DNA of 43,916 nucleotides, taken from assembly GCA_022013895.1 (NCBI GenBank), contig JAKLPK010000131.1:1-43916 (forward strand). Direction: 5' to 3'. Position 1 is the stretch's first letter, and each line of letters starts with the position of its first letter. This document shows, one piece after another, positions 8,141-35,660 of this stretch. The position numbers and the translations under genes were made by a program. The notes under the pieces are model-generated. The model was not told where the DNA came from, ran no database searches, and was given only the letters and a program-made list of their open reading frames with translations. Origin of the DNA: Cellulomonas sp. Lineage in GTDB: Bacteria > Actinomycetota > Actinomycetes > Actinomycetales > Cellulomonadaceae.

Positions 8141-8541
8141 CAGGACTTCCCGATCGTGAGGGCGGCCTCGTAGGCCGACTTGGCGCGGTCGATCACGGCG
8201 GCGTTCGCCTGGTAGCCACGCTGGGCCATGATCAGCTGGGTCATCTGGCTGGACAGATCGATGTCGGGCGTCTTGACGTTGCCGTCGGCATCGGCGAGCG
8301 GGTTGGTCGGGTCGTAGACGATGCGGCCGTCGGTGTCACCGGACAGCAGTGCGGCCGAGACCTGGACCCCCCCGTCGCCGGAGGTGATCTCACTGGCCTG
8401 GATGTACCGGGCCTGGAACGCGTCCTCGCTGGTCGAGGTCACGTTGTTCATGTTCGCGATGTTGTCCGACACGGCGTCGAGCCATTTGCGGGTGACGTCC
8501 ATCCCGCTGCCGGCCACACCGAGGGCCCCGAAGATCGTCAT
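8140..8541 (-). CDS. flgC: Flagellar basal-body rod protein FlgC
   Basis: MTIFGALGVAGSGMDVTRKWLDAVSDNIANMNNV...MTQLIMAQRGYQANAAVIDRAKSAYEAALTIGKS. Confidence 0.95.
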   Translation of the reverse strand: MTIFGALGVAGSGMDVTRKWLDAVSDNIANMNNVTSTSEDAFQARYIQASEITSGDGGVQVSAALLSGDTDGRIVYDPTNPLADADGNVKTPDIDLSSQMTQLIMAQRGYQANAAVIDRAKSAYEAALTIGKS

Positions 8542-8888
8542 CAGCTGGTCTTCATCGCTGCGCGGATCGCACTGAACTGACCGCTCACCGCTTGGGTCGC
8601 CAGCGAGTAGCGCAGGTTGGTGTCGACGTTGGACACCGTCTCGGTGTCGAGGTTGACGTTGTTGCCGTTCGTGTCCGTGGGCTCGAGGCTGCGCGAGGTG
8701 GTCGCGGTGACCGCGCCGCTGCCCTCGGCCACGGCGGCCTTGAGGGCGTCCTCGAACTGCACGCGCTTGGCCTGGTAGTTCGGCGTCTGGAGGTTGGCGA
8801 CGTTGTCCGCGATCGCGGTTTGGCGCGCGGCAAGGCCGTCCAGCGCGCTGTTGAGCGCGACAGACGTGACGGAATCGAATACGCCCAT
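8541..8888 (-). CDS. flgB: Flagellar basal-body rod protein FlgB
   Basis: MGVFDSVTSVALNSALDGLAARQTAIADNVANLQTPNYQAKRVQFEDALKAAV...; ATGA overlap with flgC. Confidence 0.95.
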   Translation of the reverse strand: MGVFDSVTSVALNSALDGLAARQTAIADNVANLQTPNYQAKRVQFEDALKAAVAEGSGAVTATTSRSLEPTDTNGNNVNLDTETVSNVDTNLRYSLATQAVSGQFSAIRAAMKTS

Positions 8889-8963
8889 GAAGGCCTCCAC
8901 CAACGACGGTGCAATGCGGCCGGTCCATGGCCCCCAGATGAGCGATCCGTGCTCGGCTGTCAC

Positions 8964-8990
8964 ATCGGTCCGGGCCGCCGGGGTCCTGAG
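8964..8990 (-). promoter_or_regulatory. Sigma-28-like promoter, flgB operon: CTCA-N17-ACCGATGT
   Basis: Read by eye on the minus strand: CTCAGGACCCCGGCGGCCCGGACCGATG; matches motifs at other flagellar promoters in the window (spacer 17 rather than 16). Confidence 0.5.
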
Positions 8991-9482: not shown

Positions 9483-10528
9483 CGGATCGCTCCCGTCGTC
9501 GCCGCTGCCGACGCGATGGACGCGGGCGACGCCGCCCCCGACGGTGCGGCTCCGGCGCCCTGAGCGGTCCCGTCACCGGGCGCAGACCCCGACGGTGGTG
9601 CCGCTCCCGGAACCGGTCCGGTCCCCGACGTCGGTGCACCTCCCGCGGTAGGCCCTGCTCCCGACGCCGGTGCAGCCCCACCGTCCGGCACGGTCCCCTC
9701 GGGGGCGGGCCCACCGGCGGGCACGGCCCCGTCCTCGGACGCGGTGCCCCCGGTGCCGGACGTCTGCAAGGCCCGGCCCGCGTCCAGGGCCTCCCCCGCC
9801 TCGGCGAGGGCGTGGGTCAACCGGGTGCGCAACGGGGTCAGCGCGTCGCGGTCGTCGCCGTAGTCGGCGGGGCTGACCGCGAGCGCGGCGTCGGCGAGGC
9901 CGTCGAGATCGCCGAGGGCGGAGTCGATGTGCTCCTGCATGGTGGCCAGTGGCACGGGGTCGGCTCCGACGTCCGCGAGAGCATCGTGCGCCTCCTGCAG
10001 AGCGACCAGGGTCTGCCCGGTGAGGAGATCGGCGCTCCGCACGAGGGCGACCTGCGCGAGCACCACCGTGTAGATGCGGAACTGGGTGACCGTCTGCTCC
10101 AGATGAGCGGTGGCCTGGGCCACGGTCGTGTCCGCCGACAGGGTCGTGCGCACCAGGGTCAGCCCGGCCCGGTCGGCCGCCAACGTGCCGAGGAGCTGGG
10201 CGCGGTGCGTCCCGGTCATGGTCCCGGCCGAGGTGACCCGCAGGGTCGCGGCGTCCAGCTCGGCGAGGCGACGGTCGACGGCGGCTCGTCCGGTCGCCTG
10301 CAGCCGGGACAGCTCCGCGGCCTCGGCAGCGGCCGTCGCGGCGTCGGCAGATCGGGTCGGACCAGGTCGGGCAGAGGCCGCGTCGGAGGCGGTGGGCACC
10401 GGGACCGCGGCGGACGGGACCGGGTCCGCACCGGCCACGGGGACGGCCACGGCGGGCGAACCCTCGGCGAGCGCGGCGCTGAGCAGCAGCGCGATCGCGC
10501 TCAGCGCGATGACGCCGGACCTCACCAC
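9479..10528 (-). CDS. Secreted, helical/coiled-coil protein with low-complexity Pro/Gly/Ala C-terminal tail
   Basis: Likely GTG start (VVRSGVIALSAIALLLSAALAEGSPAVAV signal-like segment); helical region LERTVTQFRIYTVVLAQVALVRSADLL-type; tail GPAPEGTVPDGGAAPASGAGPTAGG. Start is approximate. Confidence 0.65.
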   Translation of the reverse strand: MVRSGVIALSAIALLLSAALAEGSPAVAVPVAGADPVPSAAVPVPTASDAASARPGPTRSADAATAAAEAAELSRLQATGRAAVDRRLAELDAATLRVTSAGTMTGTHRAQLLGTLAADRAGLTLVRTTLSADTTVAQATAHLEQTVTQFRIYTVVLAQVALVRSADLLTGQTLVALQEAHDALADVGADPVPLATMQEHIDSALGDLDGLADAALAVSPADYGDDRDALTPLRTRLTHALAEAGEALDAGRALQTSGTGGTASEDGAVPAGGPAPEGTVPDGGAAPASGAGPTAGGAPTSGTGPVPGAAPPSGSAPGDGTAQGAGAAPSGAASPASIASAAATTGAIR

Positions 10529-10683
10529 GGTGCTCCGGGTGCGCTGGGCCGCAACGCTGCTCCGGGCGCACCAGACCGCCCACCGGCCGGCACCCCGAGG
10601 GTGGGCGTTCCCCTCGGCCTCGCCGTCTCGCGAGTGGTGAAGGGGGTGGGCGGACTGCGGTGTGGGGGAAGGGGGCGTGGTCC

Positions 10684-11013
10684 TCAGCCCTCCAGGTCGA
10701 GGAACACCGGACGGGCCGCCTGGACGGGTCGCAACGCGGTGAGCGCCGCGAGCTGACGACGATTCATCGTCATCGCCCGCCCGATCGCGGCCGCGGTGGC
10801 GAGCTGACGCTCCAGCAGCGCCCGGGCCCGGTCGGCCAGCGACGCCGGCAGCGGTCCGAGATCCGCGGGCGGTCGCCACGCGGCGAGCGCGGCCACCTCG
10901 GCGACCGACGGCAGGTGGTTGTTGTCGAGCACCCGTTCGGCGACCGCGACGTCCAGCTCGAGGGACTCCAGGGCGCTGGTCCAGGCGGAGTCCCAGGCGG
11001 TGTCGACCATCAC
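10684..11013 (-). CDS. Small helical protein directly after fliS; candidate FliT-like flagellar chaperone
   Basis: 109 aa, mostly helix-favouring, start overlaps the fliS stop (ATGA). Assignment from position only. Confidence 0.5.
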   Translation of the reverse strand: MMVDTAWDSAWTSALESLELDVAVAERVLDNNHLPSVAEVAALAAWRPPADLGPLPASLADRARALLERQLATAAAIGRAMTMNRRQLAALTALRPVQAARPVFLDLEG

Positions 11014-11456
11014 GCCACCCCGAGCATGGTCGAACCGATCTCATCGGCTCCCTGCGACGTCGCGGCTGCCCGGCTGGCCTGGGCCGATGCGGCCAGGGTC
11101 GCCTCGGCACCGCGCCATGCCTCGGCCAGCGGCACGACCACGTCGTGGCACTCGCGCGCCTTGACCACGTCACCGGTCGCCGCCGACTCGATGAGTCCCG
11201 ACAGCAGATAGCCGTAGATCGACATGAGCCTCGGGCCGCCCTCCCAGGCGACCACGTCGAGCGAGGAGATGAGCTCGGTCACGATGTCCCGGGCATGACC
11301 CAGATGGGCGGCGCCGCCGATCCGGTCGCCCGCGGCCAGCGCATCGATCCCACGCTGCAGATCGAGCACGAGCCGGTCGTAGAGCATCGTGAGCAGCCGG
11401 GCCGGGCCGACCGTCGCGACCGAGTCGGCGAGGTACGTGGTGCGAGCGTCGTACAT
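11010..11456 (-). CDS. fliS: Flagellar export chaperone FliS
   Basis: MYDARTTYLADSVATVGPARLLTMLYDRLVLDLQRGIDALAAGD...SLDVVAWEGGPRLMSIYGYLLSGLIESA. Confidence 0.95.
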   Translation of the reverse strand: MYDARTTYLADSVATVGPARLLTMLYDRLVLDLQRGIDALAAGDRIGGAAHLGHARDIVTELISSLDVVAWEGGPRLMSIYGYLLSGLIESAATGDVVKARECHDVVVPLAEAWRGAEATLAASAQASRAAATSQGADEIGSTMLGVA

Positions 11457-11464
11457 CAAGGAGC

Positions 11465-11476
11465 CCCTTCCATGGG
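11465..11476 (-). promoter_or_regulatory. CCCATGGAAGGG leader element before fliS (possible CsrA-type site overlapping the SD)
   Basis: Minus-strand CCCATGGAAGGGGCTCCTTGATG; the same 12-mer occurs in the fliC leader (13866-13877). Confidence 0.4.
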
Positions 11477-11488
11477 TCAACCGGACGA

Positions 11489-12880
11489 CTACGAGGACGA
11501 GGAGCTGAGCGACGCGATCGCTGTCGTCAGCCAGCTCGCCGTCGAGTTCAGGGTCTGCAACGAGGTCTCGAGCGTCGCCCACTGCGCCTCGAGCGCCTCC
11601 TTGCGGGAGGCGAGGATCGAGTCCCAGTCGGCGATCTTGTCCGCCAGATCCTCGATCTGGGCGTTGTCCGAGGTCACCTGCGCCGTGAGCGTGCCGTCGT
11701 ACTCGTCGGACGCCGTCGTCGCGACATCGGCGACCCGTGTCGAGATCGCGGTGAGCAGCGCCTGGGTGCCTTCGGGGTCGCTCGCGAGGGCCGCGGTGAA
11801 GGTCTCCTCGTCGAAGGAGAACGTGCCTTCGGAGTCGATCGTGATGCCGATGGTGGACGGCGAGACTCCGTCGACGTCGTAGGACCCGGCCTCGGCGAGC
11901 TGCTGGGACAGGTTGCGTACCAGGGAGTTGCCGGACAGCACACCGCCGGTCACCGAGGTGGTCCCGTCGGAGTTCGTCGTGGTGGTCGAGGCGGTGCGGG
12001 TGGAGATCTCGCTGAGCACCTGGTTGAGCTGCTCCACCAGGTTCGAGCCCAGCTTCGCGACGGCCTCGGTGTCCTGGCCGACGGTCACCGTGACCGGGTC
12101 GGTCGCTTCCTCGGTCACCGTGATGTCGACGCCGGTGAGCAGGTCGGAGAACGTGTTGGAGGACGAGGTGATCGCCTGCGCCTGGCTGGTGCCCGGCCAC
12201 AGCGTGAGCTGGGCGTCCTGGGCGGTCCGGGTGGTGGTGAGCGAGACGGCGGTCGCGGTGCCGGCCGTCACCTCCGCCTCGGTGCCCTGGTAGACGCTGA
12301 CGGTGTTGGCCGCACCCGACGTCTGACCGGTGAGCTGCAACCGGTACGCGGTGGTGCCCGAGGTGTCGGTGTACTTCACGGCGCTGGCACTCACCCCGGC
12401 ACCGGACTTGTTGATCGCCGCGGCGAGATCGGCCACCGAGGTCGCGCTCGAGGTGTCGACCTGGGTGAGGGTGTCGCCGACCTTCAGCGTGATCGAGCTG
12501 GCGCCGCCGGTGAAGTCGCTCGCGGTGGACAACGTCCCGGAGACCGAGATCTGACTGGTGGCGAGCTTGTCGACCGTGAACGAGAGCGAGCTGGCGGTGG
12601 CCGTCGAATCGGCGGTGGCCGTGACCGAGGTGGAGCTGGACGTCGCGGCGTAGGCGTTCCACGAGCTGGCCTTGGCGGCCGTCGTCGCGTTGTCGCCGAG
12701 CGATGCGACCTTCGTGTTGAGCGACTGAAGGGCAGTCACCAACGAGGTGAGGTCGGACTTCTTGTCGGAGAGCTGGGTCTGTGGGAGGGCCTCGACAGCC
12801 ATCAACGACGTGATGATCTCGGCTGTGTCCAGATTGCTGATCAGTCCGGAGATCTGTGAGGAGCTGCTCATCTCATCCAT
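11489..12880 (-). CDS. fliD: Flagellar hook-associated protein 2 (filament cap) FliD
   Basis: ISGLISNLDTAEIITSLMAVEALPQTQLSDKKSDLTSLVTALQSLNTKVASL...; C-terminal coiled coil; between fliC and fliS. Confidence 0.95.
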   Translation of the reverse strand: MDEMSSSSQISGLISNLDTAEIITSLMAVEALPQTQLSDKKSDLTSLVTALQSLNTKVASLGDNATTAAKASSWNAYAATSSSTSVTATADSTATASSLSFTVDKLATSQISVSGTLSTASDFTGGASSITLKVGDTLTQVDTSSATSVADLAAAINKSGAGVSASAVKYTDTSGTTAYRLQLTGQTSGAANTVSVYQGTEAEVTAGTATAVSLTTTRTAQDAQLTLWPGTSQAQAITSSSNTFSDLLTGVDITVTEEATDPVTVTVGQDTEAVAKLGSNLVEQLNQVLSEISTRTASTTTTNSDGTTSVTGGVLSGNSLVRNLSQQLAEAGSYDVDGVSPSTIGITIDSEGTFSFDEETFTAALASDPEGTQALLTAISTRVADVATTASDEYDGTLTAQVTSDNAQIEDLADKIADWDSILASRKEALEAQWATLETSLQTLNSTASWLTTAIASLSSSSS

Positions 12881-12906
12881 CCAGGAAGTGGTGCCGATGC
12901 GCGACC

Positions 12907-12936
12907 GGCGGCGGTGGGGGTGACCCCACCGCCGCC
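12907..12936 (-). terminator. Strong hairpin downstream of flagellin gene
   Basis: GGCGGCGGTGGGG-GTGA-CCCCACCGCCGCC: 13-bp perfect stem, 4-nt loop, between fliC stop and fliD start; no T-tract. Confidence 0.65.
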
Positions 12937-12963
12937 GCCGCGGTTGTCATCCGTTCAGGCAGA

Positions 12964-13833
12964 TCACTGCAGGAGCTGCAGCACACCCTGCGGGATCGAG
13001 TTGGCCTGCGCGAGCATCGCCGTGCCGGCCTGGGACAGGATCTGCGACTTCGTGAAGTTCACCATCTCGGAGGCCATGTCGGTGTCACGGATCCGGGACT
13101 CGGACGCCGACAGGTTCTCGACCGCCACGTTCACGCTGTTGATCGTGTGCTCGAAGCGGTTCTGGTAGGCACCGAGGTTGGCTCGGGCGGTCGACACGTT
13201 CTTGATCTGCGCGTCGATCGCGGTGATGGCCGCCTGGGCCGATGCGGCGCTGAACAGGTTCAGCCCGGTCGTCCCCGCCGACGTCGCAGCGAACGACACG
13301 GCGTCCGCGACGGAGGCCACGTTGGCCGAGGACAGGTCGACCGTGATCTGGCTGGCCGTGTCGCCGTCGGCGCCGACCTGGAAGCTCAGGGTCGAACCGG
13401 TGGCGCCCGAGACCTTGTCCAGCAGCGTCGTGCCGTTGAAGTTCGTCGAGTTCGCGATGCGGGTCAGCTCTTCGTTCAGCTGCGTCGCCTCAGTCGCGAT
13501 GTTCGTACGAGCGTCCTCGGAGTTCGAGTCGTTCGCTGCCTGGACCGCCAGGTCACGCATGCGGTGCAGGATCGAGTGGACCTCGGTGAGCGAACCCTCA
13601 GCGGTCTGGACGACGGAGATGCCGTCCTGGGCGTTGCGGGCGGCCTGGGTGAGGCCGCTGACCTGCGAGCGCAGGCCCTCGGAGATGGCCAGACCGGCAG
13701 CGTCATCCGCCGCGCGGTTGATGCGGTAGCCGGAGGACAGCTTCTCCAGCGACTTGGACAGCGAGTTCTGGGTGGTGCTGAGGTTGCGGTAGGCGTTGAT
13801 CGCCGCGACGTTGGTGTTGACCGAGAGACCCAT
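12964..13833 (-). CDS. fliC: Flagellin (compact, 289 aa)
   Basis: MGLSVNTNVAAINAYRNLSTTQNSLSKSLEKLSSGYRINRAADDAAGLAISEGLRSQ...; C-terminus SRIRDTDMASEMVNFTKSQILSQAGTAMLAQANSIPQGVLQLLQ. Confidence 0.98.
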   Translation of the reverse strand: MGLSVNTNVAAINAYRNLSTTQNSLSKSLEKLSSGYRINRAADDAAGLAISEGLRSQVSGLTQAARNAQDGISVVQTAEGSLTEVHSILHRMRDLAVQAANDSNSEDARTNIATEATQLNEELTRIANSTNFNGTTLLDKVSGATGSTLSFQVGADGDTASQITVDLSSANVASVADAVSFAATSAGTTGLNLFSAASAQAAITAIDAQIKNVSTARANLGAYQNRFEHTINSVNVAVENLSASESRIRDTDMASEMVNFTKSQILSQAGTAMLAQANSIPQGVLQLLQ

Positions 13834-13865
13834 GATGATCTTCCTCCTTGATGTGGGTCGAGTGG

Positions 13866-13877
13866 CCCTTCCATGGG
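13866..13877 (-). promoter_or_regulatory. CCCATGGAAGGG leader hairpin of fliC (possible CsrA-type GGA loop)
   Basis: Minus strand GTGCCC-ATGGAA-GGGCCAC can fold with GGA in the loop; a second AAGGA lies at the SD (TCAAGGAGGAAGATCATCATG). Confidence 0.4.
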
Positions 13878-13889
13878 CACACCTGGTGG

Positions 13890-13915
13890 ATCGGTAGTGA
13901 GCGCGGGGCCTTGAG
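13890..13915 (-). promoter_or_regulatory. Sigma-28-like promoter of fliC: CTCA-N16-ACCGATCC
   Basis: Minus strand CTCAAGGCCCCGCGCTCACTACCGATCC about 57 nt before the start codon. Confidence 0.6.
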
Positions 13916-13946
13916 AGGTTCTTTCCGCGCAATCGGGTGAACGTGC

Positions 13947-15485
13947 TCAGTCCATCGCGACCAGGCCCGGCGCGACGATCTCGAGCTGGGCGACCAGCTC
14001 GGGCATGCGCTGGGTCGGCACCCGGTCGAGGGCCTCGTCCAGGGATGCCAACGCCCGTCCGTCGTGGTAGGCGGAGAACGCGAGCGCCGCCGCGAGCGCC
14101 CGGTCGCGCGGGGCCTGGCCCTGCTCGGCCGCGAAGGCCACCAAGGTGCAGTACTCGTCGAGCCCGAGCCGGCGCAGCCGGGCCGACCACTCCACGGCGT
14201 CCTCGAAGGTGCCCTCGGTCGGCACGACCCGCGCTGCGGCGACCAGCACCGCCGGGTCGTCGGGCCAGCGCGCCACCATCGCCTCCAGCACGCCGAGCGC
14301 GGTCGCGTTCGCGACCTGGCCGCACCGCAGCGCCCACGCCCGCCGCTGGTCGGCGGTGATCACGGCGAGCAGCTCGTCCAGCGCCGGGGCACCCAGCTGG
14401 ACGGCGAGGTCGACGGGGTTGAGCACCCGCGACCCCGCACGAAGCGCAGCCGCCGCGACCTTGACGGCGTCGGCCTCCCGCCCGGCTCGGGCGAGCAGGC
14501 GGACCTCCAGATCGGCGACCGAGTCACGCCGCAGCACACCACCGGCCAGGTCCTGGCTCACGGTCGGGACCCGACCCAGCGCCGCCAACGCCCGGTCGAC
14601 GTCACCGACCTTCTCCGACAACCGGGCCTGGGCGATGTCGACCCTCGCACCCGTGGGGTCGATCTCACGCCACCGGTCGACCCACACCTGGGCGACGGGG
14701 AGCTGACCGCGCATGAGCGCCAACGCGGACTGGCCCAGCACCAGCGCCTCGGCGACCAGCGTCGGGAGCGTGCCCGGCGCCCAGGCCTCCTCCGCGACCT
14801 CCTGGGACCTGTCCCAGTGCGCTGCCAGGATCAGCGAACGTGCCAGGTGGGCGCGGGCCACCGCGACGGCCCGTTCGTCGTCGGCCGCGAGCGCCTCGGT
14901 GAGCTGGGCCTCGACGATCGCGATGTTGCGGGCGGCCTTGGTGGTGGCCAGGGTCTGGGCGTCGGCGTAACCGGAGTGCAGCAGCCGGATGCCGGCCAGC
15001 ACCGGACCGGCGGTCGGGCGGCCGTCCGTGGTGTAGATCTGCTCGTGCAGCCGGTCGCCCCAACGGTGGCCACGGCGACGGAAGATGCGGTTCGCGGTGA
15101 ACTCGTAGGGCTCGTCGAGCGAGGTGCGCGGCTGGTTGAGGATGCGCAGACCGAAGGTGCCGACCGAGGCCTTGGCCAGGTGCTTGCGCAGCGTCGCACC
15201 CTGGGACTCGAACACCTCGTCGGCGTCGATCGACAGCACCCAGTCACCGGTGGCGTGCTCCAGGGCCCGGTTGCGGGCGGCCCCGAAGTCGTCGTCCCAG
15301 TAGCCGTCGATCACCGTGTCGGTGTAGCGCCGGGCGACCTCGCGGGTGGTGTCGGTCGACCCCGTGTCGTAGACCACGATCTCATCGGCCCAGGTCACGG
15401 ACGACAGGCAGGCGTCGAGCACATCCGCCTCGTCCTTGACGATCATCACCACGCTGATCGTGGCGCGCTGCCGGTTCGCCGCCAT
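13947..15485 (-). CDS. GT2-family glycosyltransferase with C-terminal helical-repeat/TPR-like region
   Basis: [47 protein letters not shown]...[14 protein letters not shown]; directly upstream of fliC. Start MAANRQR. Confidence 0.9.
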
Positions 15486-15520
15486 GGCAGTTCCTACCCA
15501 TCCGCGCCGCACGGCGCACG

Positions 15521-15546
15521 GTCACCCGATCGGCCGATCGGGTGAC
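15521..15546. repeat. 26-bp perfect palindrome GTCACCCGATCGGCCGATCGGGTGAC
   Basis: Both 13-nt halves are exact reverse complements; upstream of the GT2 gene, overlapping its candidate -10. Confidence 0.95.
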
Positions 15547-15554
15547 GACCTGAG
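15529..15554 (-). promoter_or_regulatory. Sigma-28-like promoter of GT2 gene: CTCA-N16-GCCGATCG
   Basis: Minus strand CTCAGGTCGTCACCCGATCGGCCGATCGG. Confidence 0.55.
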
Positions 15555-15594
15555 AGATCCTTGAACCCGGTGCACGACACCCGGTGGACGACGT

Positions 15595-18500
15595 TCAGCG
15601 CAGGGCGGCCGTGAGGTCCGGGACGCCGACGTGCCGTACGGACATCTCGGTGGTCGGGTCGGCGAGGAATCCGCGCAGCGCGGCCACATCGACCACCTCA
15701 CCGGCCCGCAGCCAGACCCGGCGGTGACCGGAGGCCGTCGCCGATGCCAACCGGGGACCGTCCTCGTCCCCCGCCTCGACGACGACGACCCGGCCCGCCA
15801 CCTGCGCCGCGAGCTGCTGGGCGATACCGGCGCCGTGGTCGACGAGCACCAGCTCGACCGACCGTTCCGTGACGACGTCGACCAGGGCGATGAGCGCGCG
15901 CGCGCTGGACGTCAGGTCGTCGTCGCAGTCCACGATGAGCGACAGCCGCGCCATGGCGGCCTCCTTGCGGGCCAGCACCTCGCCGTTGCGCGCCTCGATG
16001 GCACGCCAGTCGAGCCCGTTGGCGTCGAACGTGGCGTGGCCCAGGTGGTAGACGAACGAGCCGCGGACCATGAGCAGCCGGGCGCCGACCGCGCGCAGCC
16101 GGCGGCACAGGTCGTCGTCCTCGTAGCCGCCGACCTCGAACTCCGTGTCGAAGCCGCCGAGCAGCCGCACCAGCTCGGTGCGCACGGCCAGGGCGAACCC
16201 GACCAGTCTGGTCACCGGTTCGACGACGGTGCCGCCCGCCGTCATGGCGTCCGTCGCGAGCGCTCGCACATCGTCCAGGCCGCGGACCGCCGCACCGCGC
16301 GCGGCCGCGTGCAGCTGCGGACCGGACACGAAGTTGCTCATCGGGCCGGTCGCACCGACCTCGGGGTCGGCGAACGGTGCGAGCAGCCGGTCGAGCCAGG
16401 GCCCCACCGGCAGCGTGTCGTTGTTGAGGTAGACCACCACCGGGTTGCGGGCGACGTCGGCACCCGAGTTGCAGCCTGCCGCGAAACCCAGGTTCCGCTC
16501 GTGCCGCACCACCTCGACCCTGGGCGCGAAGTCGGCGAGCACCTCGGGGGTCTCGTCCTGCGACCCGTTGTCGACGACGATCACCTGGTCGTCCTCGCGC
16601 AGCGTGTCCAGCAGGGTGTCCAGGCAGGCGCGGGTGGTCTGGGCCCCGTTCCACGCCGGGATGACGATCGAGGCGGCCGGTCGGTCGACCGGTTCGGCGC
16701 CCACCGCGGGGGGCGGGGTCGGGGTCGTGGCCCCTGCCCGGACCACGATCCGGGGTCGCCGGGCACGTCGGCGGCCGGTCACGTCGTCGAGCACACCGGC
16801 GAGCGCCGCGGTGAACCGCTGCGGACCGAACAGCTCGTCGACGTGGGCACGCCCCGCGTCGGACAGCCGCTGCCACAGCTCGTCGTCCGCCAGACCACGC
16901 AGCACGGCGGCGGCGAACGCGTCGGCGTCATCGGCCACGAGCGCGGTGCGGCCGTCCACCAGCGCCATGCCCTCAGCACCGACCGAGGTCGTGACGACCG
17001 GCAGCCCGTGGGCGAGCGCCTCACCGACCTTGCCCTTGACGCCGGCGCCGAAGCGCAGCGGCGAGACCGACAGCCTGGCCGAGCCGTACAGCTCGGCCAG
17101 GTCCGGGACCCAGCCGTGGAGCCGCACCTGGGTCGGTGCGTCCGCGATCAGATCCGCCGGAGCATGCGATCCCACCACATCGAGCCGCACGTCCGGCCGG
17201 ACGGCGAGCACCCGGGGCAGCACCTCCTCGATGAACCACCGCACCCCGTCCGCGTTCGGTGCGTGCCGGAAGTTGCCGACGAACAGCAGTCCGGACCGCG
17301 CCGCGCACGGCGCCCCGAGCTCGCCCACGGGGGCGTGCACGGTCGGCAGCACATGCACCGGCGCATCGGGCACGAGCTCGGCGAGCAGGGCCTGCTCCGC
17401 CGAGGAGACGACGAGGGTGGCGTCGGCCGCCTGGACCATCCCGAGCTCGATCTCGCGCAGCTTGGCCGGATCGGCACCGCCGGTCACCGTGCCGACCACC
17501 TGGGCCTCCCGCTCGACGCGCAGGAAGCTCAGGTCGACGGTGTCGAACACCACGGGCACCCCGGGCAGCGCCTCACGGCAGAGCCGTTCGCGTTCCACCG
17601 CGACGCCGATCCGGCACAGGACGGCGGCCACCACATCGGGTGCGATGTCCCGGAGCAGACCGACGAGGTCGCGGCCGCCGTAGCGCACCTCGACACCGAG
17701 CGCCTGGACCGCCGAGGTGTACGGCTCGGCACGCACCGGGCTCATCGGCACCAGCAGCACCCCGTGGCCGGCCTCGCGCAGCGCCGTGAGCATCGCCAGC
17801 GCGCGCACCGAACCGGCGTCGCGGTCGGGGGTGGGGACGGTGTGGTCGAACACCACGACGAGGTCGCGGCCCTGCCGACGCCGGGCCGAACGTTCGACGG
17901 CGCCCGGATCGGTCGGTGCGTGCTGCTCCGCGAGCTCGACGGCCCACCTGCGGGCGAACACCTCACGGTTGACGGCCTGCCGCGACTTCACACCCGAGCG
18001 CAGGTCGGTGCCGTGGGACACGCCCTCGTGGTGGACGACGACGGCCCGCGGTTCGTAGCACACCCGCAGCCCGGCGGCCCGGACGGCGAACGCCAGATCG
18101 GCGTCGTCGTAGTAGGCCGGTGCGTAGCGTTCGTCGAGCCCGCCGAGACCCATCAGGAAGTCCCGACGCAGCATGATCGCGGCGCCCGAGCAGTAGTCGA
18201 CGTCGCGCGGGTACGTGAAGGACGGGTCCTGGGGGTCGCCGAGCCGCCCGTAGTTCCAGCCGGTGCCGTCGGAGAAGAGGATCCCGCCGGCCTCCTGCAA
18301 CCGACCGTCCGGGTACACGAGCTGGGCGCCGACCAGACCGACGGTCGGGTCGGCCATCGTCTCGACGAACGCCTCCAGCCAGCCTGGCCGGACCTCGGTG
18401 TCGTTGTTGAGCAGCACCACGTACTCGCCACGGCAGGCGGCGATGCCCGCGTTGCACGCACCGATGAAGCCGAGGTTGTCGGCGAGCGTGACGACGACCA

Positions 18501-18696
18501 GGTCGGGCTCCTGCGTCAGCCGGGCGGCGGTCTCATCGGACGAGGCGTCATCGACGACGACGACCTCGTACGTGATGTCACCACGCACCGCCTCCAGCGA
18601 GCGCAGGCAGCGGTCCGTGTAGTCCCAGTGGTTGTGGACCGGGACGACGATGCTGACCTGCGGGACGTTCGCGGGCCTGGGCTGCGCGTGCACCAT
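15595..18696 (-). CDS. Multidomain glycosyltransferase (GT2 - GT4-like - GT2)
   Basis: First GT2 VSIVVPVHNHWDYTDRCLRSLEAV..DDASSDET..LLNNDTEV; middle GT4-like LLFVGNFRHAPNADGVRWFIEEVLP..GAGVKGKVGEALAHGLPVVTTSVGAEGM; second GT2 ASIVIPAWNGAQTTRACLDTLL..VDNGSQDETPEV..YLNNDTLPV. Confidence 0.93.
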   Translation of the reverse strand: MVHAQPRPANVPQVSIVVPVHNHWDYTDRCLRSLEAVRGDITYEVVVVDDASSDETAARLTQEPDLVVVTLADNLGFIGACNAGIAACRGEYVVLLNNDTEVRPGWLEAFVETMADPTVGLVGAQLVYPDGRLQEAGGILFSDGTGWNYGRLGDPQDPSFTYPRDVDYCSGAAIMLRRDFLMGLGGLDERYAPAYYDDADLAFAVRAAGLRVCYEPRAVVVHHEGVSHGTDLRSGVKSRQAVNREVFARRWAVELAEQHAPTDPGAVERSARRRQGRDLVVVFDHTVPTPDRDAGSVRALAMLTALREAGHGVLLVPMSPVRAEPYTSAVQALGVEVRYGGRDLVGLLRDIAPDVVAAVLCRIGVAVERERLCREALPGVPVVFDTVDLSFLRVEREAQVVGTVTGGADPAKLREIELGMVQAADATLVVSSAEQALLAELVPDAPVHVLPTVHAPVGELGAPCAARSGLLFVGNFRHAPNADGVRWFIEEVLPRVLAVRPDVRLDVVGSHAPADLIADAPTQVRLHGWVPDLAELYGSARLSVSPLRFGAGVKGKVGEALAHGLPVVTTSVGAEGMALVDGRTALVADDADAFAAAVLRGLADDELWQRLSDAGRAHVDELFGPQRFTAALAGVLDDVTGRRRARRPRIVVRAGATTPTPPPAVGAEPVDRPAASIVIPAWNGAQTTRACLDTLLDTLREDDQVIVVDNGSQDETPEVLADFAPRVEVVRHERNLGFAAGCNSGADVARNPVVVYLNNDTLPVGPWLDRLLAPFADPEVGATGPMSNFVSGPQLHAAARGAAVRGLDDVRALATDAMTAGGTVVEPVTRLVGFALAVRTELVRLLGGFDTEFEVGGYEDDDLCRRLRAVGARLLMVRGSFVYHLGHATFDANGLDWRAIEARNGEVLARKEAAMARLSLIVDCDDDLTSSARALIALVDVVTERSVELVLVDHGAGIAQQLAAQVAGRVVVVEAGDEDGPRLASATASGHRRVWLRAGEVVDVAALRGFLADPTTEMSVRHVGVPDLTAALR

Positions 18697-18742
18697 CTGC
18701 TTCCTCCGGTTCGGGCCCGGGCGGGCCGGACGCGCCTGCCTC

Positions 18743-18768
18743 ATCGGCTGCGGCGTTCACCCGTTGAG
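18743..18768 (-). promoter_or_regulatory. Sigma-28-like promoter of GT2-GT4-GT2 gene: CTCA-N16-GCCGATGA
   Basis: Minus strand CTCAACGGGTGAACGCCGCAGCCGATGAG, about 47 nt before the start. Confidence 0.55.
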
Positions 18769-18794
18769 CGGTACCAGGCTCCTGGACGCCGGGG

Positions 18795-19808
18795 TCAGGC
18801 GGGGACGCCGACACGTTGGGTGACGGGCCCTTCGCGGCGTTCGAGGACGAGGCCCAGCAGCCGCCGGTCGACCAGCTCGCCCGCGCGCACCAGGACCCGG
18901 ACGTCGTTGTTCGTCAGCGCGAGCCCGGCGGCGAACGCGTCGGCCCCGTCATCGACGGGTGCGACGCGCACCTGGCCGCCGGAGACCTGCGACGCGATCA
19001 GCTCGGCGACCGGGCCGCCGTGGTCGAGCAGCACCAGCTCGGCTTCGCGGTCCCCGCACAGGTCCACCACCTCCACGAGGGTGCCGGTGGTGGTCTCCAG
19101 ATCGGCGGTGCAGTCCAGCACGATGCTCAACGCCGGGTCGGGACGCACCAGATCGGGGTGCGCTCCGGCACTGACCAGGTGCAGCACGTAGCTGTCCTCG
19201 ACGACGACGAGCCGACGACCGGCGCGAGCCACCCGTCGGCACAGGTCGACGTCCTCGTCCGGGACGTCCGCGAAGCCGCGCGCCGACCGGAACGCGTCGG
19301 CGCGGACCGCCAGTGCGAACCCGTCGAGCTGCGGCACCCGGGTGACGGCGCGCCGGGCGGTCGCCATCGCGCCCTGCGCGTAGGCGAGAGCCGCCTCGGC
19401 CGAGATCAGCGCCGCGTCGGGGATGGGCCGGAACTGCGCACCCGAGGCACCACAGCTGAGCGGACCGGCGGCACCGACCGACGGGCTCGCCAACGGCGCC
19501 ACGAGTCGGTCGAGCCAGGGCGCGGTCACGACCGTGTCCGGGTCGAGGAAGACCAGCACCGGCGTGTCCGCCTGCGCGGCGCCCGCGTTGCGACCGGCGG
19601 CCACCCCGACGGGTTCGAGGCTGCGGACGGTGCGGACCAGGTCGGCGTGACCGGCCAGCAGGATCGGGGTGCCGTCGCTCGAGGCGTCGTCGACCACGAC
19701 GAGTCGGTCGTCCGGCCCGAGGGTGGGTCGCAGCGCGTCCAGGCAGGTGCGCAGCTCGTCGACGTCGTCACGGGCCACCACCACCACGGTGGCCGCCGGG
19801 CGGCTCAT
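18795..19808 (-). CDS. GT2-family glycosyltransferase
   Basis: ATVVVVARDDVDELRTCLDALRPTLGPDDRLVVVDDASSDGTPILLA...VFLDPDTVVTAPWLDRLVAPLASPSVGAAGPLSCG; related to the C-terminal third of the preceding large GT. Confidence 0.9.
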   Translation of the reverse strand: MSRPAATVVVVARDDVDELRTCLDALRPTLGPDDRLVVVDDASSDGTPILLAGHADLVRTVRSLEPVGVAAGRNAGAAQADTPVLVFLDPDTVVTAPWLDRLVAPLASPSVGAAGPLSCGASGAQFRPIPDAALISAEAALAYAQGAMATARRAVTRVPQLDGFALAVRADAFRSARGFADVPDEDVDLCRRVARAGRRLVVVEDSYVLHLVSAGAHPDLVRPDPALSIVLDCTADLETTTGTLVEVVDLCGDREAELVLLDHGGPVAELIASQVSGGQVRVAPVDDGADAFAAGLALTNNDVRVLVRAGELVDRRLLGLVLERREGPVTQRVGVPA

Positions 19809-20782
19809 ACGAGCACCCCCTGCGACGCGACCGCGCGGGCGGCGGCGAAGACCGCCTGGGTCTCCACGGCGAACGTCTGCTCCTGCGCCCCGATCCAGCT
19901 GCGGTAGGCGTCGAACCGGGAGGCGTGCCCGGCGTAGTCGGCCAGCACGTCCCGCAGCAGGGCGACGGTCGCCAGATCCGCGGTGGGACCGGTGGCCGGG
20001 TCGATCTTGTACTCGGCGGGGATCGGGACGTCCACCTCGTTGGCGGCACTGCCGCGCCGGCCGACGACCACGCAGGCCCCGGCGAGCGCCGCTTCGCGCG
20101 GGATCCGGTCGCGGCCCGGGTGCTCGCCGAAGTCGACGTAGGCCTTCACCTGGCCCAGGGCCAGGGCCAGCTCGGCATGTGTCATCCCCGCCAACGGCAC
20201 CCAGGTGAGGTCGGGGGCGAGGTTCATGAGCCGGGCGGTGGTCTCCATGCCCTTGGCGGGGTTGTAGGCCACTGCGTCGACCTTGGTGGAGGTGCGGGCC
20301 GCGGCCAGCTCGTCCCGCAGGCTGGTGTGCAGGTAGTCGCTGAGCATCATCGGCTCGCCGCCGCGCGCCCGCACCGTGTCCAGGGCGTACTGCGACTGGG
20401 TGAGGTGCAGCACACCGGGGCGGTGGTACAGCACGTCGAGCGGGCGCAGCGGCGTGCCGTAACGCCGCTGGTGCTCAGCGTTGTGCCGGTCGAACCAGTC
20501 GACGCTCAGCCACCACAGCGCCGGGACCGCGCGTTGCAGGCCCAGCAGCCGGTCGGCGTAGATCTCCGGTGCGATCACCACCTGGTCCGGCACATCGAGC
20601 GGACCGGTCCCGATCCGCACGTCGTAGTGCCGGTACGGCTCAGGGACGGTGGTCGGGTCACCGTCACCGAGGTAGACGATCTCGACGTCCTCGCCGAGCA
20701 GGCCCGCGGTGTGGGCGAGCTGATGCAGGGCCTCGGGACCACCGGTGACCACCCCGGCCGGGCACAGGACGACCGCACGCAC
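19805..20782 (-). CDS. Glycosyltransferase-like protein
   Basis: GTG start VRAVVLCPAGVVTGGPEALHQLAHTAGLLGEDVEIVYLGDG...AYNPAKGMETTARLMNLAPDLTWVPLAGMTHAELALALGQVKAYVDFGEHPGRDRIPREAALAGACVVVG. Confidence 0.75.
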   Translation of the reverse strand: MRAVVLCPAGVVTGGPEALHQLAHTAGLLGEDVEIVYLGDGDPTTVPEPYRHYDVRIGTGPLDVPDQVVIAPEIYADRLLGLQRAVPALWWLSVDWFDRHNAEHQRRYGTPLRPLDVLYHRPGVLHLTQSQYALDTVRARGGEPMMLSDYLHTSLRDELAAARTSTKVDAVAYNPAKGMETTARLMNLAPDLTWVPLAGMTHAELALALGQVKAYVDFGEHPGRDRIPREAALAGACVVVGRRGSAANEVDVPIPAEYKIDPATGPTADLATVALLRDVLADYAGHASRFDAYRSWIGAQEQTFAVETQAVFAAARAVASQGVLV

Positions 20783-20826
20783 GGCTGGCTCCTTCCTCGG
20801 CACGCAGGAGGCGCGCCACTCAGCAG

Positions 20827-22174
<1,348 letters not shown>

Positions 22175-22266
22175 GCCGGGCGCCCACGCGCCGCCGACCC
22201 TCACTCGTTCGGCCGAGATGCCCATGCGCCCGAGCCTCCAGGACGGGGTGAACCCGACGGATCGGG

Positions 22267-22293
22267 GTCAAGATCTAGGGGATGACACCCGAT
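22267..22293 (+). promoter_or_regulatory. Sigma-28-like promoter of EAL-HDOD 1: GTCA-N17-CCCGATCG
   Basis: GGTCAAGATCTAGGGGATGACACCCGATCGAATG, about 39 nt before the start. Confidence 0.4.
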
Positions 22294-22331
22294 CGAATGT
22301 CAGACGACCTCACCGGAAGGCACCGCCCAGC

Positions 22332-23519
22332 ATGAGTGACACCGCCGCACCGAGGTGGTCCGGCGCGGCCCTGGTCAACCAGCCCGTCGCCGACCCGTCC
22401 GGACGCGTCACGGCCTACGCGGTCCGGGCGATGGTGCCGACCCAGCACGGGGACCCCGAGGATGCGGCCGAGGTGAGCCTGGATGCGGCCTACGACGCCA
22501 CCGACCTGTCGACGTTGAGCGCCGGGCAGCCGCTGCTGGTCGATGCGACCCGCCGCGTGCTGGGCTCGGCGAACCCGGCGGTGGTGGCACGGGTCTCCCC
22601 CTCCCTGGCACGCGAGCCCGGGATCGAACGCCTCGTGGCCTGGCGCCACGCCCGCGGCCTGCACACGGCGCTGGACAACTTCACGGCCGAGGACGCCCAG
22701 CTCACGCTGCTGCCGATGACCCGGTTCGTCACGGTCGACGTGGTGCGTCAGGCCGGCCGTCTGGTCGAGCTGGCGGGCCTGGCCCACGATCTGGGCGCCG
22801 AGGTGATCGCGGACGGGGCCACCACGTGGTCCTCGGTCGAGCAGTCCTTCGCGGACGGTGCCGACCTGGTGCAGGGCCGGGTGGTCGACGACCGCGAGGT
22901 CGAGCGCGGCGGTCTGTCCGCCAACGAGATGCACTGCCTGGAGCTGCTGTCGCTGCTCGATGAGGAGCCGGTCGACCAGAACGCGGTCATCGGGCTCGTC
23001 GCGGCCGACCCCAACCTGGTGGTCGGTGTGCTGCACCTGGTCAACTCTGCGGTGTTCGCCCTGCCCCGGCCGATCGACTCGGTGCGCCAGGCGGTCGTCA
23101 TGGTCGGCCCGCGGCTGCTGCGGGCGTTGGCCAGCGCCTCGTTGACGCGGTCCAGCCGGTCCACGGTCGACGAGCTGTGGCGGGTGCTGTCACGCGCACT
23201 GGCCTGCTGGCAGCTGTCCGACGACGACGCCGGCTACACCGTCGGGCTGCTGTCGGCCGTCGCCGAGCAGCGCGGCACCGATCTGCGCTGGCTGGCCCAG
23301 ATGGCCGGGCTCTCGCAGACGACGACGGACGCCCTCGTCGACCACACCGGGCCGCTGGGCGACGCGCTGGCGTGCGTCCGCGCCCATGAGGCGGGCAACC
23401 CGTCGGTGGCGCTCCAGCTCGGGATCGACCCGCACCTGGTGTCCCGCGCCTGGTTGGAGGGGCTGCCCGAGGCGTTGGCGATCGCCTCCGCCCTGGCGCC
23501 GCCCCGGCCCGCGGTCTGA
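22332..23519 (+). CDS. EAL-HDOD protein 1 (degenerate EAL)
   Basis: HDOD: CLELLSLLDEEPVDQNAVIGLVAADPNLVVGVLHLVNSAVFALPRPIDSVRQAVVMVGPRLLRALA; EAL-like N-terminus with AYAVRAM in place of the EAL motif and FADGADLVQGRVV. Confidence 0.88.
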   Translation: MSDTAAPRWSGAALVNQPVADPSGRVTAYAVRAMVPTQHGDPEDAAEVSLDAAYDATDLSTLSAGQPLLVDATRRVLGSANPAVVARVSPSLAREPGIERLVAWRHARGLHTALDNFTAEDAQLTLLPMTRFVTVDVVRQAGRLVELAGLAHDLGAEVIADGATTWSSVEQSFADGADLVQGRVVDDREVERGGLSANEMHCLELLSLLDEEPVDQNAVIGLVAADPNLVVGVLHLVNSAVFALPRPIDSVRQAVVMVGPRLLRALASASLTRSSRSTVDELWRVLSRALACWQLSDDDAGYTVGLLSAVAEQRGTDLRWLAQMAGLSQTTTDALVDHTGPLGDALACVRAHEAGNPSVALQLGIDPHLVSRAWLEGLPEALAIASALAPPRPAV

Positions 23520-23617
23520 GCCCGGCCGCGGTCTGAGCCCGGCCGCGGTCTGAGCCCGGCCGCGGTCTGAGCCCGGCCGCGGTCTGAGCCCGGCCGCGGA
23601 CTGAGCCCGGCCTCCGA
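23516..23617. repeat. 17-bp tandem repeat (unit CTGAGCCCGGCCGCGGT), about 6 copies
   Basis: Four exact copies, one with a terminal substitution and one more degenerate; begins at the stop codon of EAL-HDOD 1. Confidence 0.95.
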
Positions 23618-23724
23618 CTGGGCCCGCCGCCGGTGCACGACATCCGTCCAGGGTGGTCGGGCCGGTCCGGACATGCGTCCGGCTCGGCCCGGGAGCTGCG
23701 CTCGGGTCGAGCCGGACGGTGGTC

Positions 23725-24633
23725 TCAGGCGCTGGCGCGGCGGTAGCCGTCGGAGCGGGCGTACCCCCGGTGCTGGGCGACCCGGTCGACCGGCGCACCG
23801 GTCGGCGCGATCCGCGGCTGCGGCAGCCCGACCGTCGTCGTGGGGGCCCCGGCGAGCGCGGCCCGGGCGGCCACGGCGGCGAAGTAGCCGCGGCGGCGGC
23901 GTTCGGCGACACCGTCCCGGTCGGGGGCGCCGACCAGATCGGGGTCGAGGTTGGCGTTGAGCCCGTCGCGCAGCAGGCCGAGGGCCTCGGTGCGCATCTG
24001 GCTGATCCGGGACTGGGTGACACCGAGCTCGTCGGCCAGGTCGGCCACCGAACGGTCGTCGAGGAAGAGTCCCTCGATCACGACGCGCAGCCGGTCGGGG
24101 AGGCAGGTGACGGCGCTGCGCAGCCAGTGCACGCGTTCGCCGGCCAGCAGCGCCTCCTCCGGTGTGTCGGCCTCGTCGCGGAAGGTCTCGGCGACGGGGT
24201 GCTCGGTCGCATCCATCGACAGCACGCGCCGCTCGGCGTCCTGACGGGCGGCGTCGACCGCGGCCACATCGGTGCCGAGGTTCGCGGCCAGCTCCTGGCG
24301 GGTCGGCGTGCGGCCGAGCGAGGCCCGCAGGGTGTCGGTCGCGTTGCCGAGCTCGCGGGCCCTGCGACGCGCCCCACGTGTGGCCCAGTCCATCGACCGC
24401 AGCTCGTCCAGGAGGGCGCCGGAGATCCGCAGCGCGGCGTACCGGGAGAACGGCACGCCGGTGGTGGGGTCGTAGGCGCGGGCCGCCATGACGAGTGCCA
24501 TGTTGCCCGCAGACATGAGGTCGTCGCGGGAGACGGTCGGCGGCACGCGGTGGAGCATGTCGCTCACGTGGTACCCGACGAGCGGCAGGTGCGAGAGCAC
24601 GAGCTCGTCAACGGTGCGGGGTTCGCTGGTCAC
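23725..24633 (-). CDS. FliA/WhiG-type (sigma-28 family) RNA polymerase sigma factor
   Basis: VGYHVSDMLHRVPPTVSRDDLMSAGNMALVMAARAYDPTTGVPFSRYAALRISGALLDELRSMDWATRGARRRARELG...SVADLADELGVTQSRISQMRTEALGLLRDGL; GTG start proposed (VTSEPRTVDEL), ATG at 24660 possible. Confidence 0.92.
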   Translation of the reverse strand: MTSEPRTVDELVLSHLPLVGYHVSDMLHRVPPTVSRDDLMSAGNMALVMAARAYDPTTGVPFSRYAALRISGALLDELRSMDWATRGARRRARELGNATDTLRASLGRTPTRQELAANLGTDVAAVDAARQDAERRVLSMDATEHPVAETFRDEADTPEEALLAGERVHWLRSAVTCLPDRLRVVIEGLFLDDRSVADLADELGVTQSRISQMRTEALGLLRDGLNANLDPDLVGAPDRDGVAERRRRGYFAAVAARAALAGAPTTTVGLPQPRIAPTGAPVDRVAQHRGYARSDGYRRASA

Positions 24634-24796
24634 GGGGGCTTTCTCGTCGCCCGGGACCACCCGCTTGAGGGTCGGAGGCGGACGAAAAACGGGGTCCGAC
24701 GATCCGGCTACCGACGGAGGAACCGGACGTTCCGGTCGGTCAGGAACGGGTGGAACCGCCCAAAACGCCCCCTGGAACCAGCCTGTGACAGGCCGA

Positions 24797-26919: not shown

Positions 26920-27804
26920 ATGATCTCCCGGGTCACGAACCTGACGATCCAGCGCTCGTCGCTGGCCAACCTGCAGACCAACCTGACCTCGGTCAGCGAT
27001 CTGCAGGCCCAGCTGTCCAGCGGCAAGAAGGTCACCAAGGCCTCCGACGACCCGGCCGCCGCCGCGCAGCTCCTGTCGTTGCGCGGCGACCTGGCCCGGA
27101 CCACCCAGTACGCCCGCAACTCCTCCGATGCGACCTCCTGGCTCAACACCGTGGACACCGGGCTGCAGACTGCGTCGAGCACGTTGCGCCGGGCCCGCGA
27201 CCTCGTCATCCAGGGCGGCAACACCTCGCTCTCGCAGATCTCCAAGGACGCCCTGGCCACCGAGATCGACGGCATCAAGGAGTCGATGCTCGGCGTGGCC
27301 AACACCAGCTATCTGGGGCGCTCGGTGTTCGCCGGGACGTCGGACGCCGGCGCTGCCTTCGACTCGACCACGTACGCCTGGAACGGGATCGATGCCGCCG
27401 AGGTCAAGCGCCAGGTGTCCGATGCGACGTCGGTACGGGTCGACTCGAACGGTTCCGAGGTGTTCGGTGAGGGGACCAGCTCGGTGTTCGCCACCCTCGA
27501 CCAGATCAGTGCCACGCTGCGGGCCGGCGGTGACCCGACCACCTCGCTCAACCAGCTCGACGCGCACATCACCGATGTGAAGACCGAGCTCGCCTCGGTC
27601 GGCGCCCGGGAGAACCAGATCGAGGCCGCCACCACCACCCTCACCGACAAGGAGGCGAGCGTGAAGACCCAGCTGTCCGGTATCGAGGACATCGACCTGG
27701 CCGCGGTCATCCTGTCGCTGCAGTCCGCGAACGTGACCTACCAGGCCGCGCTCGGCGCGACATCGAAGGCGCTCACGCCCTCCCTCATGGACTACCTCCA
27801 GTGA
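26920..27804 (+). CDS. flgL: Flagellar hook-associated protein FlgL
   Basis: MISRVTNLTIQRSSLANLQTNLTSVSDLQAQLSSGKKVTKASDDPAAAAQLLSLRGDL... Confidence 0.96.
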   Translation: MISRVTNLTIQRSSLANLQTNLTSVSDLQAQLSSGKKVTKASDDPAAAAQLLSLRGDLARTTQYARNSSDATSWLNTVDTGLQTASSTLRRARDLVIQGGNTSLSQISKDALATEIDGIKESMLGVANTSYLGRSVFAGTSDAGAAFDSTTYAWNGIDAAEVKRQVSDATSVRVDSNGSEVFGEGTSSVFATLDQISATLRAGGDPTTSLNQLDAHITDVKTELASVGARENQIEAATTTLTDKEASVKTQLSGIEDIDLAAVILSLQSANVTYQAALGATSKALTPSLMDYLQ

Positions 27805-28247
27805 GCGCCGTCCGGATGGGGCCCACGGTCGCCGTGTCGACGGGTGCGGGGCAGCGTGACGTCCCGACCCTGCTGCGCATGGTCGTCCCGTTGCCCGGGC
27901 TGCCCGGGCGCACCGAGTACGCGCTGGAGGCCCTCGACGAGGTCGGGGTGCTGTTCGCCATCCGCAGCGCACCCGAGGCCGGGCCCCAGGTGCGGCTGTT
28001 CCTGGTGGCGCCGCACATCTTCTTCCCGACGTACGCGCCGCGGATCGACGCCGCGGGGCTCGACGACCCGTTCGGGCAGTCCTCACCCGAGGACCGCGTG
28101 CTCTTCGTCGTGGTGCGCCCCGCCGAGGACGACGGTCTGCCGCCCACCGCCAACCTGCTGGCCCCGCTCGTCGTGGACACCCTCACCGGCCGGGCGCTGC
28201 AGCTCGTGCTCGACGAGGACCTGCCGTTGCGGGCACCGGTCGGCTGA
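27801..28247 (+). CDS. fliW: Flagellar assembly factor FliW
   Basis: LPGLPGRTEYALEALDEVGVLFAIRSAPEAGPQVRLFLVAPHIFFPTYAPRI...VRPAEDDGLPPTANLLAPLVVDTLTGRALQLVLDEDLPLRAPV; GTG start overlaps flgL stop. Confidence 0.88.
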   Translation: MSAVRMGPTVAVSTGAGQRDVPTLLRMVVPLPGLPGRTEYALEALDEVGVLFAIRSAPEAGPQVRLFLVAPHIFFPTYAPRIDAAGLDDPFGQSSPEDRVLFVVVRPAEDDGLPPTANLLAPLVVDTLTGRALQLVLDEDLPLRAPVG

Positions 28248-28343
28248 TCCGGATCGCACCGGGCTCCCCCGTCCACCATGATGCTCCCGACCCGTCTCAC
28301 CGCCGCACCCGCTCCCCCGCCCGCCGCCGTCCCAGGAGGACCC

Positions 28344-35533: not shown

Positions 35534-35625
35534 CCCGATGTCGGGCAGCCCGGAGATTCCTCCGTACCCGCTCCGCTTCCTCACCACTGCCCCCGTCACC
35601 TGCCGCCACGTGTCCCTACGAGGGG

Positions 35626-35651
35626 ATCGACGCCTCGCACCGGAACTTGAA
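35626..35651 (-). promoter_or_regulatory. Weak sigma-28-like promoter of EAL-HDOD 3: TTCA-N16-GTCGATCC
   Basis: Minus strand TTCAAGTTCCGGTGCGAGGCGTCGATCC; one mismatch in each box. Confidence 0.3.
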
Positions 35652-35660
35652 CGAGCGCGG

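Follow-up and report, generated by a model that had tools for sequence, protein, structure and literature searches.

A conserved flagellin leader hairpin in Cellulomonas and its relatives as a probable CsrA target, and a candidate second target at the flgB rod operon

The ordering of flagellar gene expression in Actinobacteria without FlgM was left open in a 2008 genome paper (PMC2587704). The question arises again at the locus described here, a window of 43,916 nt from a Cellulomonas draft genome that carries flagellin, rod and fliW genes. In an initial annotation of this window an identical 12-mer had been noticed in the leaders of fliC and fliS, and a FliW-CsrA partner switch had been proposed for flagellin, with an extension to fliS. 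We consider it likely, from the comparison of leaders presented below, that CsrA represses fliC through two sites in its leader and that the flgB leader is a second conserved target, while fliS is not a conserved target.

CsrA, FliW and other regulators

The proposal presupposes a csrA gene, and one was found in the genome outside the window (contig C83; L001, 1501-1896, plus strand), encoding a protein of 131 aa that matches PF02599 (E 4.1e-22) and TIGR00202 (78.9 bits, cut-off 70.1). It is located 3' of flhA and an FlhF-like gene in a flagellar and chemotaxis cluster extending from motA to cheA (gene names mostly read from translations), and it does not adjoin fliW in this genome. Two residues known from characterised CsrA proteins as RNA contacts, L4 and R44, are in place in the sequence. 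The protein is about twice the usual length, with a long Pro/Ala-rich C-terminal tail following the CsrA fold. The description of the window as a FliW-encoding locus was also confirmed, with fliW at 27801-28247 (plus strand) overlapping the end of flgL. The encoded protein matches PF02623 with a modest score (E 3.8e-16; 60.5 bits, cut-off 25), and its nearest solved chain is a FliW (5dmb_A). FliD in the window was confirmed by Pfam.

Among 61 congeneric genomes, 45 encode flagellin, 45 FliW and 40 CsrA. The 16 genomes without flagellin had neither FliW nor CsrA, and the five flagellated congeners without csrA were all fragmented drafts, each in about 170 or more contigs. A sample of 148 genomes of the class contained 20 with a flagellin over the curated cut-off, 18 of them with csrA. 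We looked for a clear complete flagellated genome without csrA as a negative control and found none in the genus and class samples. The occurrence of csrA tracks the possession of flagella, which weakens its co-occurrence as evidence for CsrA control of the leaders, and because of the link with flagellin we regard CsrA in this class as essentially a flagellar protein.

FlgM was not found in this draft genome (90% complete), which agrees with PMC10746217 and, for Kineococcus, with PMC2587704. The flgN-flgK-flgL-fliW genes start in the window with flgN, whose leaders showed a sigma-28-type promoter in 44 of 60 cases and were devoid of conserved GGA hairpins (2/60), so that FliW synthesis would fall outside CsrA control. 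A sigma factor of the FliA/WhiG type is encoded at 23725-24660 (minus strand), its best NCBIfam match being TIGR02479 with 165 bits, below the cut-off of 189.6. Between this gene and an ORF ending at 23519 we observed a repeated coding-like unit (RPRPGSDRGRAQTAAGL...; 23098-23643), which suggests a tandem DNA repeat. That ORF (22218-23519) and three others (28278-29570, 34241-35851 and 35661-36953) resemble each other by eye, appear to encode signalling proteins and flank the flagellar genes; at 22268 one of the four shows a sigma-28-type promoter pattern.

The fliC leader

The flagellin gene fliC (12964-13833, minus strand, start ATG at 13833) encodes 289 aa with the Pfam domains Flagellin_N and Flagellin_C. 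Upstream of it, a pattern scan predicted a sigma-28-type promoter (TCAAG, spacer, ACCGAT; 13890-13914, minus strand) with its CCGAT part at 13894-13890. This promoter pattern was found in a narrow position band ahead of 60% of fliC genes, and transcription of fliC would likely start near 13883, immediately 5' of a hairpin (13862-13880, minus strand) that represents predicted CsrA site 1. As annotated, GTGCCC-ATGGAA-GGG-C-CAC pairs with one bulged C and an ATGGAA hexaloop; a folding program returned the same structure, whose core GCCC-AUGGAA-GGGC at 13878-13865 presents GGA in the hexaloop. The second annotated site, AAGGA at 13849-13845, does overlap the Shine-Dalgarno sequence AGGAGG, and a leader scan identified the combined AAGGAGG (13843-13849, minus strand) as Shine-Dalgarno with an overlapping ANGGA, predicted CsrA site 2. 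In the flagellin leader of this genome, one GGA lies in a hairpin loop and another on the Shine-Dalgarno; the GGA-to-GGA spacing is 25 nt here and 21-31 nt in most leaders.

This layout is common to flagellins of Cellulomonas, Nocardioides, Microbacterium, Arthrobacter, Dactylosporangium, Demequina and others, and to those of several Firmicutes. We counted stems closing an ANGGAN hexaloop in 117 distinct fliC leaders, taken without hand selection, using dinucleotide shuffles as control. Stems of at least 4 bp were found in 94 of the 117 leaders versus 0.6% of shuffles, stems of at least 3 bp in 99 versus 2.1%, and an ANGGA no more than 22 nt from the start, in the Shine-Dalgarno region, in 111. 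RNAalifold applied to 46 aligned leaders returned precisely the upstream hairpin. Pair counts gave 34 cells with double changes where shuffles gave 9.7, and 92% of cells were paired, compared with 22-60% when the partner was slid. Since the count pattern itself fixes A-GGA, invariance of the loop is better judged from the unconstrained alignment, in which the stem arms covaried around a constant loop with invariant A, G, G and A. ACGGAU and ACGGAC were the commonest loops, AUGGAA being a variant. Extra, previously unused leaders drawn later across the whole class showed the hairpin in most cases. An 18-nt single-hairpin model (R1) is unspecific genome-wide, giving the fliC hairpin E 4.2 in its own genome, and its better matches are consistent with chance; the case rests on position and conservation. 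No relevant family was returned by Rfam for 9500-16000.

The predicted location at the 5' end of the transcript, where a stem could protect the mRNA, would also suit a mere stabilising stem or a start-site structure without any CsrA role. We regard this explanation as highly improbable, as a stabiliser needs no invariant A-GGA loop and the fliC loop stays fixed while the arms change; moreover, csrA and fliW track flagellin. With two-site CsrA repression, one face of a CsrA dimer would bind the GGA of the upstream hairpin and the other the GGA on the Shine-Dalgarno, and the ribosome would be blocked at fliC. Cytoplasmic flagellin would hold FliW, export of flagellin would free it, and the freed FliW would remove CsrA and allow flagellin synthesis. 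We infer these steps from B. subtilis (PMC6529632) and C. jejuni; CsrA binding, repression, the FliW switch and promoter use at the Cellulomonas leaders are predictions from sequence. The best reading would be that CsrA, held or released by FliW, controls the translation of flagellin, and we propose the same for the rod operon.

The arrangement resembles that of B. subtilis hag, where there are likewise two GGA sites, one of them on the Shine-Dalgarno, and where csrA and fliW belong to the flagellar regulon. The hag layout is common to the Firmicutes leaders in our data set (e.g. Ureibacillus L073). Unlike in B. subtilis, csrA follows flhA and the FlhF-like gene instead of lying beside fliW, CsrA is longer with its 131 aa, FlgM was not found, and a start-codon helix and the flgB leader element are added. 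For Kineococcus radiotolerans, CsrA control of flagellin was suggested in 2008 because the Shine-Dalgarno site was matched at 9/12; csrA was noted in the motility island, and no flgM was noted (PMC2587704). The life-cycle section of that paper describes no upstream hairpin, FliW, covariation or flgB element. The flagellin part of our analysis extends this known biology by a covarying upstream hairpin beyond the Shine-Dalgarno-site proposal.

The start-codon helix was found in the MFE fold of the fliC leader (13827-13859, minus strand), with GACCCA (13859-13854) pairing to UGGGUC (13832-13827). It covers the U and G of the start codon together with codons 2-3 and leaves the Shine-Dalgarno in the loop. 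The upstream arm often, although not universally, tracks codon 2 (GACCC/GGGUC, GACUC/GAGUC, GAGCC/GGCUC): Nocardioides and Aeromicrobium have GACUC opposite GAGUC, Xylanimonas and one Demequina have GAGCC opposite GGCUC, and leaders with ATGGCA or ATGAGA are without the helix. Because an automatic alignment (A2) misplaced the upstream arm, a swap test was used, in which own pairing reached 12.5 versus 10.8 for permuted partners and was matched by none of 1000 permutations, kinship not being controlled. The helix is likely, though not proven, to be present in many Micrococcales and Propionibacteriales.

Directly upstream of fliC (13947-22174) we observed glycosyltransferase-like genes, of which 13947-15512 is Pfam-confirmed, and an ORF resembling UDP-galactopyranose mutase. 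This region is possibly a flagellin glycosylation cluster.

The shared 12-mer and the fliS leader

The window contains two exact copies of the 12-mer CCCATGGAAGGG and no others, both on the minus strand and in the two leaders for which it had been annotated, at 13866-13877 (33-44 nt before the fliC start) and at 11465-11476 (9-20 nt before the fliS start). Its identity by itself is weak evidence of shared function, because identical 12-mers on the same strand are abundant in the window (1599 pairs versus about 540-740 in first-order Markov sequences). Across species, 16 of 9828 pairings of fliC with fliS leaders shared a run of at least 12 bases; such a match would be rare for a pair named beforehand, yet this pair was noticed and not pre-named, which again makes the evidence weak. 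Judged by conservation, the fliC element lies far beyond chance and the fliS element does not.

The gene fliS (11010-11456, minus strand, start ATG at 11456) encodes the flagellin export chaperone (Pfam FliS). The 12-mer copy does overlap its Shine-Dalgarno, as had been noted, and just 3 bp (CCC/GGG) enclose the ATGGAA loop there. For the alternative hairpin AAGG-GGCT-CCTT, which had also been suggested, the letters are present. Folding of the fliS leader yielded no structure that exceeds shuffles (z 0.29 and 1.36). Comparison with relatives' leaders showed that the copy is not conserved, the hairpin missing from the rest of the genus as well as from the two closest relatives, whose FliS proteins are 73-75% identical. 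Stems of at least 4 bp were found in 1 of 84 fliS leaders, with 0.35 expected. Those of at least 3 bp occurred in 8 of the 84, including a Nocardioides clade with a 3-bp hairpin on the Shine-Dalgarno, versus 16 of 573 other flagellar leaders (Fisher p 0.007). A sigma-28-type promoter was sought ahead of fliS and found in none of the 84 leaders, so that this leader is in fact the intercistronic gap between fliD and fliS.

Control of both fliC and fliS by CsrA through the shared 12-mer, as initially proposed, would fit the exact identity of the two copies, the ATGGAA hexaloop with its 3-bp stem on the fliS Shine-Dalgarno, and the excess of such 3-bp hairpins, that of the Nocardioides clade among them. 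We nevertheless judge it rather improbable in view of the missing hairpin in the nearest relatives and the rest of the genus, the single leader with a stem of at least 4 bp, and the general frequency of identical 12-mers in this window; fliS also has no second paired site close by and no promoter of its own. The proposed switch can be retained for flagellin, for which the leader sites, csrA and fliW are all present, but its extension to fliS is not borne out. fliS would most simply be read as having a strong Shine-Dalgarno (GGAAGGGG) and, upstream of it, a match that arose by accident, and the look-alike site is probably not a CsrA target. Because a few Nocardioides carry the 3-bp version on the Shine-Dalgarno, a private regulatory site at fliS is possible.

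The flgB rod-operon leader

The gene flgB (8541-8888, minus strand, start ATG at 8888) is the first of the rod/basal-body operon flgB-flgC-fliE-fliF-fliG, as assigned from ORFs and from coding starts and leaders that are homologous in relatives. We screened the leaders of seventeen genes of the window and the csrA cluster for GGA hairpins at all loci and found an excess at flgB. An excess at flgL in the same screen was an artefact, as the query had matched flagellin paralogues. A first scan of flgB leaders with 6-nt loops only was an undercount (11/67), and the scan was widened to loops of 6-8 nt once the sequences had been read.

In this genome a predicted sigma-28-type promoter of the flgB operon (TCAG, 17 nt, CCGAT; 8964-8989, minus strand; pattern scan) precedes two hairpins on the same strand, each with GGA in a 7-nt loop; the transcript is predicted to start near 8957, which would place the pair at its 5' end. 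Hairpin 1 (GAGC-ACGGATC-GCTC, 8940-8954) was recognized by conservation, and hairpin 2 (GGCC-ATGGACC-GGCC, 8918-8932) by conservation and by a covariance model (R2); the Shine-Dalgarno follows about 20 nt 3' of hairpin 2. The promoter pattern was found ahead of 76% of flgB genes, and the typical pair behind it is GAGC-ACGGATC-GCTC and GGCC-ACGGATC-GGCC. Both stems had at least 4 bp in 39 of 41 aligned actinobacterial leaders, with a GGA-to-GGA spacing of 20-26 nt (mode 23). The two exceptions are a row truncated by the excerpt and a row with a 3-bp stem. No other such pair exists in the window. Model R2, whose training alignment includes this leader, scored it with 59.8 bits and the next site in the genome with 25; these secondary matches (at most 25 bits) were rejected as coding DNA by eye. 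In the class sample, the element was present in 10 genomes, nine of which had csrA and the tenth of which is 80% complete. Comparing the flagellar regions of six genomes, this one and five congeners, showed GGA hairpins accompanied by another ANGGA at short distance as a recurrent feature of fliC and flgB only.

The arms of hairpin 1, GAGC/GCTC, are almost invariant, so that covariation cannot tell whether this hairpin is an RNA element or a DNA operator. Together with the position immediately 3' of the promoter, this would be compatible with repeats that serve as DNA operators for a transcription factor unrelated to CsrA, with fliC still being CsrA-controlled. We consider such operators unlikely, if somewhat less so than the control of fliS discussed above, since A-GGA in the flgB loop is invariant besides the arms, while the second loop base varies, and the loop is the same as in fliC. 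In addition, the arms of hairpin 2 change in pairs (GGCC/GGCC, GCCG/CGGC, CGCC/GGCG, AGCC/GGCT, TGCC/GGCA), a signal blurred by loop length, and the hairpin spacing is near that of CsrA-bound flaA (PMC4894983).

The flaA leader of C. jejuni carries two GGA hexaloops separated by 21 nt, a distance close to the 18-nt optimum of a CsrA dimer; CsrA binds them, and FliW acts as its antagonist (PMC4894983). With its adjacent hairpins flaA is nearer to the flgB leader than to the fliC leader and represents the closest precedent for flgB, although the tandem hairpins are on flagellin itself in C. jejuni and on the rod operon here. As a CsrA target, the flgB operon may be subject to repression, to message stabilisation, or its message may titrate CsrA in the manner of C. 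jejuni flaA mRNA. Given the distance between hairpin 2 and the Shine-Dalgarno, direct overlap is a less evident route to repression. No previous report of the flgB element was found in the searched literature (CsrA with flgB, Cellulomonas, Nocardioides or Microbacterium), in which few subscription papers were covered. The system is of a known kind, with flgB as a proposed new conserved target; CsrA would thereby have two conserved flagellar targets in this group, and the leaders provide a deep alignment for CsrA RNA recognition. A CsrA-type element on both the rod operon and flagellin would be a concrete answer to the ordering question, namely translational control by an RNA-binding protein and its protein antagonist. 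More speculatively, and as a tentative possibility only, FliW-switched CsrA acting on the flgB operon and fliC might set the order and balance of assembly at translation in Actinobacteria without FlgM and with shared sigma-28-type promoters, replacing the FlgM checkpoint.

Two further GGA hairpins were observed in flagellar regions. One, a 6-bp hairpin (GGCGCC-ATGGAG-GGCGCC; L209 2586-2604, plus strand) with no counterpart in five congeneric flagellar regions, lies between fliL- and fliM-like genes of this genome. The other, seen in a single congener (G020) and not in the others, lies ahead of an flbD-like start (MIVVTR...; L215 4935, plus strand).
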